NCBI RefSeq assembly: GCF_003987855.1
Contig: NZ_RXIZ01000004.1
Span: 70,220 to 134,219 of the forward strand
From: Hyphomicrobium sp.
GTDB taxonomy: Bacteria > Pseudomonadota > Alphaproteobacteria > Rhizobiales > Hyphomicrobiaceae
DNA: 64,000 bases
Direction: 5' to 3'
Position 1 is the first letter of the stretch. Every line of letters starts with the position of its first letter. A program made the position numbers and the translations under genes. The notes under the pieces are model-generated. The model did not search any database, was not told where the DNA came from, and saw only the letters and a program-made list of their open reading frames with translations. Positions 20,207-26,599 of this stretch are shown here, piece after piece.

Positions 20207-20695
20207 TCACGCCGCCTTCGTCGGAGCAGTCATTACCCCGCTGCGAAATCGAGGCTGCAGCTTCTGCAGCAAATAATCGAGCGAGATCGGACCAGGTCCC
20301 GCGACGGCTAGCCAGCCGAAGAGGGCCATGTATGACACTTCCTCGAAGCCCGCGAGCGTTTCGAAAGAATCGACTTGGTCCAACTTCGCGCTGATGATTG
20401 CAACGATCATCACGACGACCAGCGGTACAGCAGCAATTCTTGTAAAAAGCCCGACCAGAAGAAAAAGACCGCCGAAGAATTCAATGCCGGAAACGAAAGG
20501 CGTCATGATTTCCGGAAATGGAATGCCCCACGATTCGAAGTTCTTTGTGATCTGCGGCAGGGCGTGCAGCTTTTCCCATCCACTCCACATGAATACCCAG
20601 CCGACGACGATGCGCGCAAATAGCGGCGGCAGCCAGCTAAAATAGCGCGACAGCGATTCTGGAACGTCTATCAACCAGTGCGTTAAAAACTTCAT
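20207..20695 (-). CDS. DoxX-family membrane protein (BufD-like)
   Basis: This 162-residue protein has four hydrophobic segments and the DoxX pattern (RIVVGWVFMWSGWEKL, then GIEFFGGLFLLVGLFTRIAA). DoxX-type proteins accompany bufferin operons (BufD) and are thought to take part in a membrane redox or transport step, but their role is not settled. Here the gene points away from the Cys-rich precursor gene at 20944, sharing a 248-base divergent promoter region with it. A GAGG ribosome site lies 9 bases before the ATG. The -35/-10 pair at 20751-20776 would drive it. Confidence 0.85.
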   Translation of the reverse strand: MKFLTHWLIDVPESLSRYFSWLPPLFARIVVGWVFMWSGWEKLHALPQITKNFESWGIPFPEIMTPFVSGIEFFGGLFLLVGLFTRIAAVPLVVVMIVAIISAKLDQVDSFETLAGFEEVSYMALFGWLAVAGPGPISLDYLLQKLQPRFRSGVMTAPTKAA

Positions 20696-20750
20696 GGCCT
20701 GAACCCTCAGCTCGATTAAGGCGGTTGGTTCCGCCCGACTGATGGGTTGT

Positions 20751-20776
20751 TACGACCCGACCGAGCGTTGGGTTAC
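20751..20776 (-). promoter_or_regulatory. ECF-sigma-like promoter for the DoxX gene
   Basis: On the minus strand GTAACC (20776-20771) is followed, after exactly 16 bases, by CGTA (20754-20751). The form GTAACC-N16-CGnn resembles alphaproteobacterial ECF promoters, including the SigF type reported for Caulobacter bufferin operons. The -10 box lies 55 bases upstream of the DoxX start. Confidence 0.5.
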
Positions 20777-20870
20777 AGCACAAATGGAATAATTCAGGCA
20801 CTCAGCTATCTCCAGAGCCTCGGCCGAACTTTTTTTTCTCATTGGCAGAAACGTCTTCGGCGAAGCGTCC

Positions 20871-20899
20871 GTAACCTCCATCGTGGCCGGCTTGCCGAC
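20871..20899 (+). promoter_or_regulatory. Second GTAACC box facing the precursor gene
   Basis: GTAACC stands at 20871-20876 on the plus strand, facing the precursor start at 20944. The best -10-like CGAC is at 20896, a 19-base spacing, too long for the usual 16-17. It could be a degenerate ECF promoter or chance. No better plus-strand promoter was found in the gap. Confidence 0.25.
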
Positions 20900-20943
20900 C
20901 ACAGACGATGCGTGGAAACAAAACCGATTAAAGGGAACATACC

Positions 20944-21201
20944 ATGAAGATCAGCGTACGGTCCGGTTCGGCCCTCGCCGCAGCTGCGGCGTCCCTCATG
21001 CTTGCAAACGCCGTTGTTTCGAGCGTGGCATATGCCGACGAAGCCATGGGCCACTGCGTTGGCGCCAACGCCTGCAAGGGTCAGAGCGCCTGCAAGAGCG
21101 CCTCGAACGCTTGTAAGGGCCAGAACGCCTGCAAGGGTCAGGGCTTTACCGAGACGACGAAGGAAGGCTGCGCGACGGGCCACTTCGAACCCGCGAAGTA
21201 A
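20944..21201 (+). CDS. Bufferin-type RiPP precursor (BufA2-like, Cys-rich exported peptide)
   Basis: This 85-residue protein has a Sec signal peptide with a likely cut after AYA (residue 31). The mature part holds six cysteines (C38, C44, C50, C57, C63, C76), four of them followed by Lys, in repeated ACKGQ units. This closely matches the BufA2-like precursors whose core cysteines are converted by MNIO enzymes to copper-binding thiooxazole rings. The matching MNIO and partner genes lie 1.2 kb downstream. An AGGGA ribosome site precedes the ATG, and a strong terminator follows. Expected fate: modified in the cytoplasm, exported, and binding copper in the periplasm. Modification and metal are inferred from the family. 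Confidence 0.85.
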   Translation: MKISVRSGSALAAAAASLMLANAVVSSVAYADEAMGHCVGANACKGQSACKSASNACKGQNACKGQGFTETTKEGCATGHFEPAK

Positions 21202-21212
21202 GCACGCCCAGT

Positions 21213-21241
21213 AAAAAACGCCGCTCTTCGCGGCGTTTTTT
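21213..21241 (+). terminator. Strong intrinsic terminator directly after the precursor gene
   Basis: A six-A run, CGCCGC (21219-21224), loop TCTTC, GCGGCG (21230-21235) and a six-T run form a symmetrical Rho-independent terminator 11 bases after the precursor stop. It would let the short precursor mRNA accumulate well above the downstream enzyme mRNA. Confidence 0.9.
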
Positions 21242-21296
21242 CGCTTCGCGGTGACGCAACTGAACAAAGCCCAATTCCATACCGAAGGCGCTATCG

Positions 21297-21692
21297 ATGT
21301 CTCTTAAATCTCTCACCCAAATCGGCTTGGCGGCAGCAATAATAATGTCCACGGCTTTGGGTGCATCGGCGTCCGAGCGCAAGGTTTTTGACGAGAAAAG
21401 CTTTGCCGCCGCTCAAGCTCAGGGCAAGCCCGTTCTCGTTGACGTTTCTGCAAGTTGGTGTCCGACATGCCAGGCTCAAAAGCCGATCATCGACAAGGTT
21501 TCTGCGGATCCGCGATTCAAGGACCTCACAATCTTTGAAGTCGACTTCGACAGCCGCAAAGATGTCCTCCGCAAATTCGACGCCCGCGTACAAAGCACCC
21601 TCATCGTCTTCAAGGGCGGCAAGGAGACCGGCCGCTCAGTCGGTAGCACCAGCGAACAAGCGATAGCTGACCTGCTCGATAAGGCTCTTTGA
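21297..21692 (+). CDS. Periplasmic thioredoxin-like protein
   Basis: This 131-residue protein has an N-terminal signal peptide (LAAAIIMSTALGASASE) and a thioredoxin fold with the active pair C55/C58 in SASWCPTCQ. It resembles the C-terminal domain of DsbD and other reducing periplasmic thioredoxins. A CcdA-like electron transporter starts 11 bases downstream, so together they act like a split DsbD: electrons pass from cytosolic thioredoxin through the membrane to this protein. In this context the likely clients are thiols of the bufferin-type peptide or its copper ligands. This is inference from gene order. Confidence 0.88.
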   Translation: MSLKSLTQIGLAAAIIMSTALGASASERKVFDEKSFAAAQAQGKPVLVDVSASWCPTCQAQKPIIDKVSADPRFKDLTIFEVDFDSRKDVLRKFDARVQSTLIVFKGGKETGRSVGSTSEQAIADLLDKAL

Positions 21693-21702
21693 GGAGGGCT
21701 GA

Positions 21703-22422
21703 ATGCTTGCATCGATTGGCTTGGCATTCATTGCGGGGATTCTTTCCGTGCTCTCTCCGTGCGTGCTGCCGCTCATCCCCATAGTGATGGCGACAGCCTC
21801 GTCGGCCCACCGCTACGGCCCCCTCGCACTGGCAGCCGGCGTCGCGCTATCGTTCGTCGCCTTCAGCATGTTCATCGCCACCATCGGATTCGCTATCGGA
21901 CTGGACGGAACGGTCTTCCGCTTCGTCGCCGCGGCGCTGCTGGTGGTGATCGGCGCGATATTGCTCGTGCCTGTTTTGCAGGAGCGCTTTGCTATCGCCG
22001 CAGGTCCGATTTCGAGCTGGGCCGACCAGACGTTTGGAAGCCAAACGGGGCCCGGTATCCTAGGTCAGTTCGGCGTGGGGCTTGTTCTCGGCGCCGTTTG
22101 GAGCCCCTGCGTTGGTCCGACGCTTGGAGCTGCTTCGCTGCTTGCGGCACAAGGCAAAGATCTCGAACAGGTGGGGCTTACCCTGTTGGCATTCGGCTTG
22201 GGAGCCGCCATGCCGCTGCTGCTGCTTGGAACGCTCTCGCGCGAGATTCTCAACCGCTGGCGTGATAGGCTGACCTCCGCCGGATCCACCGGTAAATATC
22301 TGCTCGGCGGCATGCTGGTCGCCACCGGATTCGCGATCCTGACCGGCCTCGATAAGGCGCTCGAAGCGAAAATCGTGGCAGCGTCGCCGGCCTGGTTGAC
22401 GGAATTGACGACACGGTTCTGA
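21703..22422 (+). CDS. CcdA/DsbD-type transmembrane thiol-disulfide electron transporter
   Basis: This 239-residue membrane protein has about six hydrophobic segments and the paired redox motifs SPCVLPLIP (C20) and SPCVGPTLG (C136), the hallmark of CcdA/DsbD-beta. It moves reducing equivalents across the inner membrane. It is separated by 11 bases from the upstream periplasmic thioredoxin and by 15 from the MNIO gene. No cytochrome c biogenesis genes are nearby, so service to the RiPP system is more likely than to haem attachment. Confidence 0.9.
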   Translation: MLASIGLAFIAGILSVLSPCVLPLIPIVMATASSAHRYGPLALAAGVALSFVAFSMFIATIGFAIGLDGTVFRFVAAALLVVIGAILLVPVLQERFAIAAGPISSWADQTFGSQTGPGILGQFGVGLVLGAVWSPCVGPTLGAASLLAAQGKDLEQVGLTLLAFGLGAAMPLLLLGTLSREILNRWRDRLTSAGSTGKYLLGGMLVATGFAILTGLDKALEAKIVAASPAWLTELTTRF

Positions 22423-22436
22423 GAAGAGGAATTCCT

Positions 22437-23330
22437 ATGTTCGCGGAAGCACCGAGAGAAAGCGAAGCCGGCCGCCCAAAGGCGAATGACAAGCCGCGCT
22501 ATCTCGGCTTTGGCTTGGGACTGCGCGCCCAGCACTACTCCGACATTTTAAATGGCGACCCCGACATCGATTGGTTCGAGGTCATCTCGGAAAATTACAT
22601 GGTCCCCGGAGGTCAGCCGCTGCGCATTCTCGACCAGATACGTGCGCGCTATCCCATCGTCATGCACGGCGTCTCTCTATCGATTGCATCGACCGCGCCG
22701 TTCGACATCAACTATCTCAAGCAGTTGAAGGCTCTCGCCGACCGCACGGAACCGGTATTCGTCTCCGATCACCTGTGCTGGACGGGCGTTCACGGCATCA
22801 ATCTTCACGATCTGTTGCCCTTTCCCTACACGCCGGAAGCTCTTGAGCATGTGGTTGCTCGCATCCATCACGTACAGGATCATCTCAAGCGGCCGTTGGC
22901 GCTCGAGAACGTATCGAGCTACGTTCAATTCAGACATTCCGAAATGCCGGAATGGGAGTTCATCTCTGAGATGGCGAAGCGCACCGGCTGCTGGCTCGTG
23001 TTTGATGTCAACAATGTCTATGTGAGCGCCTTCAATCACGAGTATGACCCGTATGAGTTCATCGCAGGCATTCCAGCTGACCGGGTCGTTCAATTTCACC
23101 TTGCCGGTCATGAGCACAACATGACCCACATCATCGATACGCACGACGCGCTCGTCTGTGACGAAGTTTGGACGCTTTATGAAGCGGCATTGAAACACTT
23201 CGGTCCTGTATCGACCATCATCGAACGCGATGACGACATTCCGCCGTTACCGGTGATGCTGGAAGAACTGGGAAAAGCGCGCCACCTCGCTGAAAATGCG
23301 TTTGCGGCGGCCGCCGCGCGGCACGATTGA
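22437..23330 (+). CDS. MNIO (DUF692) multinuclear non-heme iron oxidase, BufB-like
   Basis: This 297-residue TIM-barrel protein has the family's metal-ligand pattern: MHGVSLSI (His), SDHLCWTG (Asp, His), LENVSSY (Glu, Asn), DVNNVYVS (Asp, Asn), HLAGHEHN (His) and IIERDDD near the C-terminus. MNIO enzymes use two or three iron ions and oxygen to rearrange peptidyl cysteines, for example into 5-thiooxazole. The evident substrate is the Cys-rich precursor at 20944. It overlaps or abuts the DUF2063 gene, its usual partner. The N-terminal 25 residues are polar and look disordered. Confidence 0.93.
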   Translation: MFAEAPRESEAGRPKANDKPRYLGFGLGLRAQHYSDILNGDPDIDWFEVISENYMVPGGQPLRILDQIRARYPIVMHGVSLSIASTAPFDINYLKQLKALADRTEPVFVSDHLCWTGVHGINLHDLLPFPYTPEALEHVVARIHHVQDHLKRPLALENVSSYVQFRHSEMPEWEFISEMAKRTGCWLVFDVNNVYVSAFNHEYDPYEFIAGIPADRVVQFHLAGHEHNMTHIIDTHDALVCDEVWTLYEAALKHFGPVSTIIERDDDIPPLPVMLEELGKARHLAENAFAAAAARHD

Positions 23331-23338
23331 GGCCCTCA

Positions 23339-24160
23339 GTGTCGCCGGTCGAAGTCAAACACGCGCGAGAGGCTGAAAGCTCGAAGCCCTCTTTAAGCGA
23401 GCTGCAGGACGCATTTCAGCGTGCCATCATGCTTGGCGACGACGCCGTCTTGCATAATCTGCTGGACAATTCACGCACCGACCGAAACGTGCTTTTCGGC
23501 GTTTACCGTCACGCGTATGTCTCACGCCTCGTGGAGGTCGTGCGTAACGACCATCCATTCCTCCATCGCTATTTGGCCGATAAGAAGTTCGACGAGTTGG
23601 CGCGTTCCTACGTTGCGGCGCGTCCGTCGCGAAGCCAGAACGCCCGCTGGTTCTCCCACGGCCTGCCAGAATTCATCGAGGAAGCGTATCCAAATGCAAT
23701 ACATATCGCGGAATTGGCCGGGCTAGAGCGTGCCTTGAGCGACGCCTTCGACGCGCCTGATGTGCCACCACTTGAGATGGCCGATCTTGCGGCCGTTCCG
23801 GTTGAAAGCTGGGCCGATCTCATTCTGGAGCCGCATCCTTCCGCCCGGCACCTTGCCCTCAAAACGAACGCTCATGCCCTGTGGCTGGCGCTGAAGAACG
23901 ACGAGACGCCGCCGCCGGTTGAGAGCTATCCCGTCGCAGAAAATATCCTGACGTGGCGAGACGGCTCGACACCAAAAGTCCGCCGCATGTCGGGCGAAGA
24001 AGCCATGATGTGGAAAGAAGCGATAAACAGCGTTCCATTCGGGGCGCTATGCGAGCTTGTTTCGATTTATGACGATCCCGAGACGGCGCCCCTTCGGGCG
24101 GCCCAGCATCTTCAGACCTGGATCACGTCCGGACTTCTCGCCAAATCGGCAAGCGCCTAG
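23339..24160 (+). CDS. DUF2063 / HvfC-BufC family partner of the MNIO enzyme
   Basis: The protein has about 273 residues. The N-terminal helical part (LSELQDAFQRAIMLG, then FGVYRHAYVSRLVEVVRNDHPFL) is typical of DUF2063, which binds the precursor leader and presents it to the MNIO oxidase. A second, less conserved domain follows (SWADLILEPHPSARHLAL onward). The start is ambiguous: a TTG at 23327 overlaps the upstream stop, but the GTG at 23339 has GAGG six bases before it and is preferred. It is the last gene of the bufferin-type unit. Confidence 0.88.
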   Translation: MSPVEVKHAREAESSKPSLSELQDAFQRAIMLGDDAVLHNLLDNSRTDRNVLFGVYRHAYVSRLVEVVRNDHPFLHRYLADKKFDELARSYVAARPSRSQNARWFSHGLPEFIEEAYPNAIHIAELAGLERALSDAFDAPDVPPLEMADLAAVPVESWADLILEPHPSARHLALKTNAHALWLALKNDETPPPVESYPVAENILTWRDGSTPKVRRMSGEEAMMWKEAINSVPFGALCELVSIYDDPETAPLRAAQHLQTWITSGLLAKSASA

Positions 24161-24271
24161 AGCCGCGCCCTACACAAACCAAAATCTTCCGCTTTCTCAC
24201 CCAACCTTATAAAGGTCGCTGCGGGCACAACAGGTTCAAACGCTAGAAACGGCCGAGAGGCGTTTCTCGGC

Positions 24272-26599
24272 GTGGGGATTTATCGACGGGTGGGACAAGT
24301 GAAGTTTGCGGGGCTCTCGTTATCGAACGCGGGAATTGGGCCGGTGCTGCGCCGCATCGCGGCCGCGATCGTGACCCTATTGATGCTGACAATCGGCCCG
24401 AGCGTTCCCGCGGCCGTCAAAACTACCGACGACGCGGAAGCCGCACAGCGCCCGCCCGTCATCATGCCGATCTTTTTCACCTCCAAAAGCGACGATTGCT
24501 ATGACAGCGGCATCGTGACCGCGATCAAACGCATCGCGACGCTTTCGCAAAACTACGTCAACCGTACGGGCGGTATCGCCGGCAGGCAGCTCCTCATCAA
24601 CCTGCTCGATGACAAGCGCGATCCACAACGTGCAACGGCAAACCTCGCGACCGCAATCGGCGATCCACAAACGATAGCGATGGCCGGCTTCACAAGCTCA
24701 AACCGTGCCAAAACCGCCTTCGATGCAAACGGCAAGGATCTCAAAGCCGCAAACATCCCTTTCATCTCGGACATTTCGGTCGCCAAGATCATCGCCGATT
24801 ATCCCTCCGTTTTCACGACGAGACCGTCGGAAGACGAGGAGCGAATGCCGGTCATCGCCGAATTCGTCAAGGAAATGAAATTCGAACGCGTGGCTTTCGT
24901 CGGCCTGCAAGACAATGTCGCGAGCGGAAATCTGGGCGACGCTCTGAAGAGAGTTCTCGCGCCGAATGCGATAATCGCCGACCATCGCTTGGTCTTGAAG
25001 GACGACAAGCTAGATCCCGCCGCCATTTCAGCGATGACGGATGATCTAAAAGCAAAGAATGCCGACATCGTCTTTATCGCCATAGGCAATGATCGCCGCA
25101 ACGATGTCCTCAATCAGTTCAAGTCGGCAGGCTTCACACCGCCCGTCTTTGTCAACGGCCGCATTGACAATCTGGTCTCGAAGTCCGGCGGAGCGATGTA
25201 TCCCAACGATGTCTATCAGCTCGCCTGGGACGGCTTTCCCGATGTTTACAGCGAGCGTCTTCGTGACCTTCTTCTGACCTCGATCCATCCCGAATATTGG
25301 GTCTTTCAAGGAGAAAAGAACGATGCGGCGCCGGGCTGGAAGGACGGCACCTGCAAAGTGCGCGACGACGACGTTCCGCCCAATCCGCTGGATGACGAGA
25401 ACATGCGCGCGCTGCAGACCGGCATGCGCTACGCCGACATGATCCGGCTCGTCGCCGAAGCAGCCCGGTCCGCACCCGCTGCCGCGAGTGTCCCAGACCT
25501 GCGAGAGTTTATCGTCAATGAACTCAACACCACCTATGCCGCTGGCAAGGGCATGTTCAAGGGCCGCTTTGGCGACTGGTCATTCCGGCCAACCTCACGC
25601 GCGGCAGCTACGGCACCGCTGCTCGTCGTGCTTCCGCGAGGCATCGGCCACCCGCAGCTCGCACCGATGCAGTTTCTTCGCCTCCGCAACGATGCCATGC
25701 GCAGGATCGATACGCTCTATGCCGACATAGACCTGATCCGCGCTGACCGTATTGACGACAACGATCAGACGTTTCTCGCCGACTTTTATATTTCCATGAA
25801 CGACAGGAGCGGTGCATCGATCGACCAGATCGAATTCTCCAACGCTTACCTCGATCCTGGCTCAAATAGCCGCCAAATCACGATCACGCCGATCCATGAT
25901 GGCGGCAAGAGCGACGCGTATCCCGATCACATGAAGATCTATCAAGTGACGGGCAAGTTCCTCTATTCGCCCAACCTCAGGAACTATCCATTCGATACGC
26001 AGCGATTCTCGATCGACATTCAGCCCAAGCACGGCTCGGCGGCCTTTATCGTGCAACCTCCGCCGAGAAACTTGCGCGATAAGTCGGTTACCGTGGACGG
26101 CTGGGATCCGAAGGATCAATACGTCAGCTATGACGAGGATTTCGTGCGCACGGTCGACGCTCACACGCTCGAACCCAGCGTCGTTCCATTTTATAAGGCG
26201 AGCTTCGTCTGGCTCATGAAGCGGCAGACCACTGACTACTTCCTTCGCGTTGTCGTTCCTCTGGCCTTCATTTTGTTCATCGCCTATCTCTCGATCTTCA
26301 TCTCGACCCATCACTTCGAAGCGATCGTGACGATCCAGGTGACCGCGCTGCTCTCGGCTGTCGCTCTTTATCTCGCGCTGCCAAAACTCGACGCGAACAT
26401 CGAGACGCTCTCAGATCGACTGTTCCTGTTCACATATTTGGTCTTAAGCATCATCATCGCGATTACCATCGCCCGCGTGAACCGACGCATCGAGCCGATC
26501 GGCTGGCTCAAAAAATCACTCGCGTTGTTGCACATCGCGATCGTGCCGCTGATGGTCGGACTGATGTCTTACTACGTCTATCAAGCGATGACAGCGTGA
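24272..26599 (+). CDS. Periplasmic-binding-protein domain fused to a pentameric ligand-gated ion channel
   Basis: The protein has 775 residues from a GTG (another GTG at 24299 is possible). After a signal peptide, residues about 60-460 resemble the ABC branched-chain amino-acid binding fold (NYVNRTGGIAGRQLLINLL; GFTSSNRAKTAF). Residues about 480-650 look like the beta-sandwich of Cys-loop receptors, with YPFD at 572-575 but no Cys pair, as in prokaryotic members. Four membrane segments follow: M1 about 656-678, M2 683-703, M3 715-735, M4 750-770. M2 begins EAIVTIQVTALLSAVAL, close to the cation channel GLIC, with Glu at -2', Thr at 2' and 6'. A ligand-gated, probably cation-selective channel of the inner membrane is inferred. 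Confidence 0.85.
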   Translation: MGIYRRVGQVKFAGLSLSNAGIGPVLRRIAAAIVTLLMLTIGPSVPAAVKTTDDAEAAQRPPVIMPIFFTSKSDDCYDSGIVTAIKRIATLSQNYVNRTGGIAGRQLLINLLDDKRDPQRATANLATAIGDPQTIAMAGFTSSNRAKTAFDANGKDLKAANIPFISDISVAKIIADYPSVFTTRPSEDEERMPVIAEFVKEMKFERVAFVGLQDNVASGNLGDALKRVLAPNAIIADHRLVLKDDKLDPAAISAMTDDLKAKNADIVFIAIGNDRRNDVLNQFKSAGFTPPVFVNGRIDNLVSKSGGAMYPNDVYQLAWDGFPDVYSERLRDLLLTSIHPEYWVFQGEKNDAAPGWKDGTCKVRDDDVPPNPLDDENMRALQTGMRYADMIRLVAEAARSAPAAASVPDLREFIVNELNTTYAAGKGMFKGRFGDWSFRPTSRAAATAPLLVVLPRGIGHPQLAPMQFLRLRNDAMRRIDTLYADIDLIRADRIDDNDQTFLADFYISMNDRSGASIDQIEFSNAYLDPGSNSRQITITPIHDGGKSDAYPDHMKIYQVTGKFLYSPNLRNYPFDTQRFSIDIQPKHGSAAFIVQPPPRNLRDKSVTVDGWDPKDQYVSYDEDFVRTVDAHTLEPSVVPFYKASFVWLMKRQTTDYFLRVVVPLAFILFIAYLSIFISTHHFEAIVTIQVTALLSAVALYLALPKLDANIETLSDRLFLFTYLVLSIIIAITIARVNRRIEPIGWLKKSLALLHIAIVPLMVGLMSYYVYQAMTA

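Follow-up and report, generated by a model that had tools for sequence, protein, structure and literature searches.

A putative Buf2-type bufferin operon of Hyphomicrobium with a thioredoxin–CcdA pair and ECF16-type promoter motifs

Bufferin clusters have been described with a core of four genes, for a precursor peptide, an MNIO, a DUF2063 protein and a DoxX protein, and additional conserved genes are reported to be extremely rare; the main text of that survey mentions neither thioredoxin nor DsbD nor CcdA (PMC12452194). Some of these genes belong to stress regulons governed by extracytoplasmic function (ECF) sigma factors of the ECF16 type. In Caulobacter, sigma-F (ECF16) controls DUF2282-DUF692-DUF2063-DoxX genes (PMC3511200), which rise under copper (PMC8224329), and in Sinorhizobium RpoE7 (ECF16) controls a DUF692-DUF2063 operon (PMC6180224). 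In Bradyrhizobium, EcfF controls bll1026-bll1027, encoding a thioredoxin and a CcdA-type protein, together with methionine sulfoxide reductases, and the authors proposed that the pair delivers electrons to a periplasmic methionine sulfoxide reductase (PMC3420878). Here we analysed a window of 64,000 nucleotides from Hyphomicrobium sp. (NCBI RefSeq assembly GCF_003987855.1, contig NZ_RXIZ01000004.1, positions 70,220 to 134,219 of the forward strand), in which a thioredoxin and a CcdA gene lie within a six-gene bufferin locus at 20207-24160. On balance we read this as a bufferin operon of the Buf2 type that has probably taken in the periplasmic-reductant arm of its own stress regulon, the one governed by ECF16 factors (sigma-F/NrsF, EcfF/OsrA).

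The locus resembles each of these systems in part. Buf2 bufferin clusters and Cys-Lys captophorins (PMC12452194, PMC13097082) have in common with it the six-cysteine BufA2 precursor, MNIO, DUF2063 and DoxX, to which this locus adds the thioredoxin and CcdA between precursor and maturase. ECF16-controlled DUF692-DUF2063 genes are common to the Caulobacter and Sinorhizobium regulons, with DUF2282 and DoxX in Caulobacter; however, the regulon tables consulted contain no thioredoxin–CcdA pair, and the Caulobacter precursors are of the Buf1 type (DUF2282) (PMC3511200, PMC6180224). The Bradyrhizobium EcfF/OsrA regulon has the periplasmic thioredoxin, the DsbD-beta/CcdA-type protein, the ECF16 factor and a GTAAC-type promoter (PMC3420878), but its target table, as consulted, gives methionine sulfoxide reductase (Msr) genes and hypothetical proteins, none named DUF692, whereas here the pair sits inside a bufferin operon. 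Judged by sequence, the bufferin arm and the thioredoxin–CcdA arm of the ECF16 regulon, published separately, thus appear to be united in one operon. New here are the recurrence of related pairs beside MNIO genes, on several branches of the CcdA tree, an ECF16-type motif common to bufA, doxX, the sigma-NrsF pair and three msrA loci, and the same motif before pairs that lack MNIO linkage. We found no paper tying thioredoxin–CcdA to bufferins in the literature searched, whose coverage stopped short of subscription papers, some preprints and supplements.

The bufferin locus and its type

A sequence-only reading of this stretch had described a bufferin-type locus of doxX, precursor, thioredoxin, CcdA, MNIO and DUF2063 genes, and we located all six where it had put them, doxX on the minus strand and then bufA2, trx, ccdA, bufB and bufC on the plus strand. 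All the Pfam matches below, to DoxX, Thioredoxin, DsbD_TM, MbnB_TglH_ChrH and DUF2063, exceed the gathering cut-off. The features, in window coordinates, are as follows.

20207..20695, minus strand: doxX, DoxX family, HvfX-like (PF07681, 81.1 bits; NF050144 HvfX, 71.4 bits, below its cut-off of 80)
20751..20776, minus strand: GTAACC-N16-CGTA, ECF16-type promoter motif for doxX (4 of the 5 orthologous loci have it at equal spacing, L198 being the exception)
20848..20873, plus strand: GAAACG-N16-CGTA, ECF16-type promoter motif for the bufA operon (all 5 orthologous loci have it at equal spacing)
20944..21201, plus strand: bufA2, precursor of 85 amino acids with a Sec-type signal peptide, judged by eye (NF050166, 82.7 bits, cut-off 60)
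21213..21241, plus strand: terminator-like hairpin and T tract in the bufA-trx gap (folding at -19.2 kcal/mol with z -4.2; aligned across all five loci)
21297..21692, plus strand: trx, exported thioredoxin with WCPTC and a signal peptide judged by eye (PF00085 Thioredoxin, 56.1 bits)
21703..22422, plus strand: ccdA, DsbD_TM/CcdA-type membrane electron carrier with Cys20 and Cys136 invariant in the alignment (PF02683, 57.6 bits)
22437..23330, plus strand: bufB, MNIO bufferin maturase (NF050167, 381.2 bits, cut-off 310; PF05114 MbnB_TglH_ChrH, 376.1 bits)
23339..24160, plus strand: bufC, DUF2063 partner protein (PF09836, 66.2 bits)

The longest open reading frame of bufC begins at TTG 23327, with GTG 23339 the likelier start; counted from the latter, the gaps are 10 nucleotides (trx-ccdA), 14 (ccdA-bufB) and 8 (bufB-bufC). 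The bufA-trx gap is 95 nucleotides and contains the hairpin and T tract, which are absent from the output of a consensus terminator scan although folding and alignment show the hairpin. It is possible that this element causes the precursor to be made in excess.

With BufA2 and BufB both over their curated NCBIfam cut-offs, this is almost certainly a bufferin locus, as had been proposed. The profile search suggested as a check also places the MNIO (DUF692) and DUF2063 proteins above the Pfam cut-offs; DoxX is upheld by Pfam and stays under the cut-off of the HvfX profile, and for BufC no NCBIfam profile matched at E<=1. The cysteines of BufA2 stand at residues 38, 44, 50, 57, 63 and 76, reproducing the spacing 6-6-7-6-13 that had been read. 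Their description as six cysteines in ACKGQ repeats applies in part: four lie in an A-C-K motif, three of those within ACKGQ, and the outer two in neither. No change at any of the six was seen among 62 distinct BufA2 sequences drawn from the order and the family, and in 62, 60, 52 and 62 of these sequences the inner four are followed by lysine. The N-terminus is hydrophobic, with an AYA-DE cleavage-like site recognised by eye only. In BufB we observed ERDDD from residue 263, aligned to ERDF in the solved relative 3bww, the Asp after the presumed catalytic Asp being Phe in 3bww. An Asp at this place has been reported for Cys-Lys MNIOs (Gadgil et al., PMC13097082), and in our own reading of the alignment FonB Phe250 would be its equivalent. 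The curated matches, the Cys-Lys conservation and the Asp in BufB together narrow the predicted type to Buf2 (Cys-Lys).

By analogy with characterised relatives, BufA2 would carry thiooxazole rings and bind copper. The natural prediction is thiooxazoles at Cys44, 50, 57 and 63 and a disulfide between Cys38 and Cys76. An outer-pair disulfide is stated for Buf1 by Antoine et al., who describe the Buf2 modification itself as not yet identified (PMC12452194); carrying the disulfide over to Buf2 is our own tentative extension. The thiooxazole product of Gadgil et al. was alkylated at its thiols and prone to aggregation, which the authors put down to possible disulfides (PMC13097082).

The placing of thioredoxin and CcdA between precursor and MNIO, pointed out in the sequence-only reading, is real. 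The same six-gene order is present in the window and in four further genomes of the genus (L196-L199), which argues against chance. Among these five loci the mean ratios of nonsynonymous to synonymous differences per site (pN/pS) are 0.11 for DoxX, 0.12 for BufA, 0.22 for thioredoxin, 0.14 for CcdA, 0.09 for BufB and 0.27 for BufC, with silent differences near saturation (mean pS 0.46-0.71). These values point to purifying selection on all six genes and to an arrangement that is old within the genus. A relative of the same genus (G152) has an identical CcdA. The divergent doxX had also been taken as peculiar to this locus; it recurs in relatives without thioredoxin–CcdA (L055, L056 and L215), and we rejected it as a novelty.

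ECF16-type motifs and the regulon

The intergenic region between doxX and bufA holds two divergent motifs of the shared form G[TA]AACn-N16-CGTA, read as a GTAAC-type -35 and a CG[TA]A -10 element. The published Caulobacter sigma-F motif is GTAACC-N16-CGAA (PMC3511200), from which the doxX motif departs by one mismatch and the bufA motif by three (GAAACG, CGTA); that of EcfF is GTAAC(g,a)-N14-15-(c,t)CG(t,a) (PMC3420878). No sigma-70 promoter was found in 20600-24400, and that alternative was rejected. Elsewhere in the source genome (23 contigs, 3.78 Mb), the motif stands directly upstream of an ECF sigma gene with nrsF next in order (contig C23, L229; NrsF 185 bits), and NrsF was found in 22 of 22 genomes of the genus. 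The motif also stands at all three msrA loci of the genome, 64-97 nucleotides before the probable first start: two msrB-msrA operons have it with CGTA and one MsrA gene with CGAA, the last caught only by a looser pattern. This last MsrA, at L290:1321-2064 (plus strand, contig C2), has a signal- or anchor-like N-terminus and the motif 64 nucleotides upstream, and is a likely second client of the thioredoxin and CcdA.

Membership of thioredoxin–CcdA pairs at large in this regulon would predict the motif at lone pairs too. Of 132 loci, 123 had a thioredoxin adjoining CcdA, and 115 upstream regions were distinct and long enough to be used. We found GWAAC-N17-CGWA upstream of trx-ccdA in sense orientation in 41 of 115 regions, in antisense in 6 of 115 and in 1.6% of random 330-nucleotide windows; spacings of 10-16 and 18-24 gave 0-9 (9 at N16). 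Grouping the regions at 70% thioredoxin identity left 65 clusters, with the motif in 24 in sense and 5 in antisense. It precedes 37 of 99 pairs without MNIO linkage and 4 of 16 MNIO-linked pairs, in which trx often lies inside a longer operon. In view of these sites, we consider ECF16 control of the locus very likely.

Recurrence of the pair beside MNIO genes

A survey of thioredoxin and CcdA genes beside MNIO genes had been suggested with the sequence-only reading. We scanned genome contigs, some of them short, with the CcdA alignment and used the best 80 of 289 confirmed loci, to which the neighbour counts below refer. Thioredoxin was a neighbour cluster in 70, and an MNIO gene lay within 10 kb of CcdA in 9. 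About 0.27 MNIO neighbours would be expected by a rough density estimate (180 MNIO matches in 249 genomes, 4.5 Mb assumed for each, relatedness ignored). In an unsupervised ranking that excluded CcdA, thioredoxin and antisense shadow open reading frames, the commonest neighbour clusters within 5 kb were ECF sigma (10), DoxX (9), DUF2063 (9), MNIO (8) and an SDR protein (7), and NrsF was among several neighbour clusters at 6 loci. The arrangements vary: a Hyphomonadaceae locus (L131) runs DUF2282 precursor-MNIO-DUF2063-DoxX-Trx-CcdA, and loci of Phyllobacterium and Aminobacter (L142, L160) run MNIO-DUF2063-DoxX-sigma-NrsF-Trx-CcdA. In a CcdA tree of 114 rows, in which the window alone represents the five-genome group, at least 9 changes are required to account for the 12 MNIO-linked rows, and well-supported branches force 6 of these changes.

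In the family, a search of 103 genomes gave 27 BufA2 places over the cut-off in 26 genomes, and at 5 of the 27 (the window and L196-L199) thioredoxin and CcdA stand between bufA and bufB. A further genome of the genus (G301, L200) has a more distant thioredoxin–CcdA pair divergent from bufABC, with the motif on both sides. Outside the family, the order gave 36 BufA2 places, and a window-type pair lay in the stretch around 1 of them (L054, Methylobacterium-like). Plasmid records with thioredoxin–CcdA pairs showed no MNIO in three stretches inspected, two by annotation and the third, unannotated, by scan.

Other neighbours were seen at related loci. At L182:8094-9842 (minus strand) Sco-like and PCuAC-like genes, recognised by eye, separate ccdA from bufB and run on the opposite strand, adding another copper-related setting for thioredoxin–CcdA. 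Three Bradyrhizobium-like loci of one family (L060, L061 and L066) have doxX, another CcdA and a WCHWC gene (DUF255/DsbH-type) upstream of two tandem bufA2 genes, a second and different combination of thioredoxin fold and CcdA at bufferin loci. A large WCHWC protein of this type is also encoded upstream of bufA2 at L054:6477-8507; the DUF255 assignment is by Pfam for the L054 gene and by eye at the other loci.

Possible clients of the exported thioredoxin

CcdA, of 239 amino acids, matches the membrane domain only, with profile matches to the CcdA structures 5vkv (4.6e-18) and 2n4x. The thioredoxin model has the thioredoxin fold at a predicted local distance difference test (pLDDT) score of 89, and alignment to solved thioredoxins puts Ser100, just before the strand 101-106, at the cis-Pro position. 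Serine occupies this position in 112 of 116 distinct members of the thioredoxin family, and both active-site cysteines are present in 116 of 116. The serine is family-wide, lone pairs included, and thus not an adaptation to bufferin in particular. Since Su et al. 2007 (as cited in PMC2757866) reported that the cis-Pro prevents metals from binding at CxxC, metal binding by a thioredoxin without it is a possibility, and the family is a further lead in its own right. A membrane electron carrier with a periplasmic thioredoxin-fold partner is also found in ScsB-ScsC, a membrane reductase and periplasmic protein of copper tolerance, of which ScsC binds Cu(I) (PMC8900818). ScsB carries two extra periplasmic domains, whereas here a bare CcdA is combined with a classical thioredoxin fold lacking the cis-Pro. 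Membership of Scs was rejected because CcdA lacks the periplasmic alpha and gamma domains, the likeness being one of working only.

In the reading we favour, an ECF16-type factor would turn on bufA-trx-ccdA-bufB-bufC and doxX jointly. In the cytoplasm, BufB with BufC would convert the four BufA2 cysteines that precede lysine into 5-thiooxazoles by oxidation, and the modified peptide would leave through Sec, as suggested by characterised relatives. As in its family, CcdA would pass electrons from cytoplasmic thioredoxin across the membrane to the exported thioredoxin, which would keep periplasmic thiols reduced under metal or oxidant stress, with copper the presumed metal. Its most likely clients would be the thiols left free on the thiooxazoles and the two bufferin cysteines that stay unmodified; the exported MsrA is probably another. 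Peptides with thiooxazoles bear thiols and have to function where conditions are oxidising, and the locus names a concrete candidate for keeping them reduced: a CcdA-fed thioredoxin from the same message would reverse oxidation of the bufferin thiols. That the pair is a periplasmic reductant we consider highly probable. It most likely keeps bufferin thiols, the exported MsrA or both reduced; direct action on bufferin we put forward tentatively, as somewhat short of an even chance.

Several observations weigh against this reading. The published proposal for the Bradyrhizobium pair sends its electrons to methionine sulfoxide reductase and not to bufferin (PMC3420878). The motif is not over-represented genome-wide (34 sites against 42 for a reversed control), so that isolated sites elsewhere mean little and the argument is where the sites lie. 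Within the window, the published sigma-F pattern with two mismatches occurs at chance level (43 against 44.8 in shuffles), and the claim therefore rests on position, spacing and conservation. No MNIO lay within the DNA examined at 71 of the best 80 CcdA loci. The MNIO-linked rows are somewhat clustered on the CcdA tree, their 9 changes comparing with a shuffled mean of 11.6 (4 of 500 shuffles as low), which means that the linkages are not all independent: in part they were inherited, in part they arose anew. MNIO genes are present in 39 of 66 genomes with a window-type CcdA and in 102 of 183 without (p 0.67), and a window-type CcdA was rejected as a marker of bufferin genomes. Finally, no window-type pair stood in the stretch examined, some contigs being short, at 21 of the 27 BufA2 places in the family, including one in the same genus (G053), or at 35 of the 36 elsewhere in the order. 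The pair is thus not needed for bufferins, and is a recurrent but optional partner.

It is possible, though in our view rather unlikely, that thioredoxin and CcdA serve a periplasmic methionine sulfoxide reductase and general disulfide repair and not bufferin, sharing the operon since both are ECF16 targets and one promoter suffices. The EcfF regulon with its proposed electron route, the motif at all three msrA loci, one with a signal- or anchor-like N-terminus, and at lone pairs, and the uncorrelated presence of pair and MNIO across genomes would all fit such a role, and streptococci have been described with CcdA, surface thioredoxin-fold proteins and MsrAB. However, a role in Msr reduction alone leaves unexplained why MNIO, DUF2063, DoxX and sigma/NrsF are the commonest neighbours and why five genomes have retained the pair at its place between precursor and maturase, and the pair stands beside none of this genome's three msrA genes.

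A more specialised role is a good deal less probable, namely that the thioredoxin without cis-Pro draws on CcdA to act as a dedicated reductase of bufferin and a shuttle for Cu(I), reducing disulfides between thiooxazole thiols and loading or unloading copper. If true, bufferin would be a rechargeable, enzymatically maintained metal buffer. Least probable of all is a chance insertion of a housekeeping thioredoxin–CcdA pair, such as one for cytochrome c maturation, unrelated to bufferin or metal stress: such CcdA proteins are named cytochrome c biogenesis proteins in public records and the arrangement in the five related genomes probably goes back to one event, but the genome encodes two further DsbD_TM proteins over the cut-off, the linkage recurs in other families and arrangements, G301 has a different pair divergent from bufABC with the motif on both sides, and purifying selection has acted across near-saturated silent distances.

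Two neighbouring proteins were noted in passing. Downstream of bufC at L054:3099-4268 (minus strand), L061:2403-3389 (minus strand) and L066:7240-8856 (plus strand), a hypothetical protein, whose L054 copy has no Pfam match, shows by eye a HEMVH zinc-protease-like motif. In the window, a 775-amino-acid protein is encoded at 24272-26599 (plus strand), with an N-terminal Peripla_BP_6 domain (57.8 bits). Its C-terminal part, without a Pfam or NCBIfam match, resembles by eye an extracellular sandwich followed by four membrane helices, as in ligand-gated channels.

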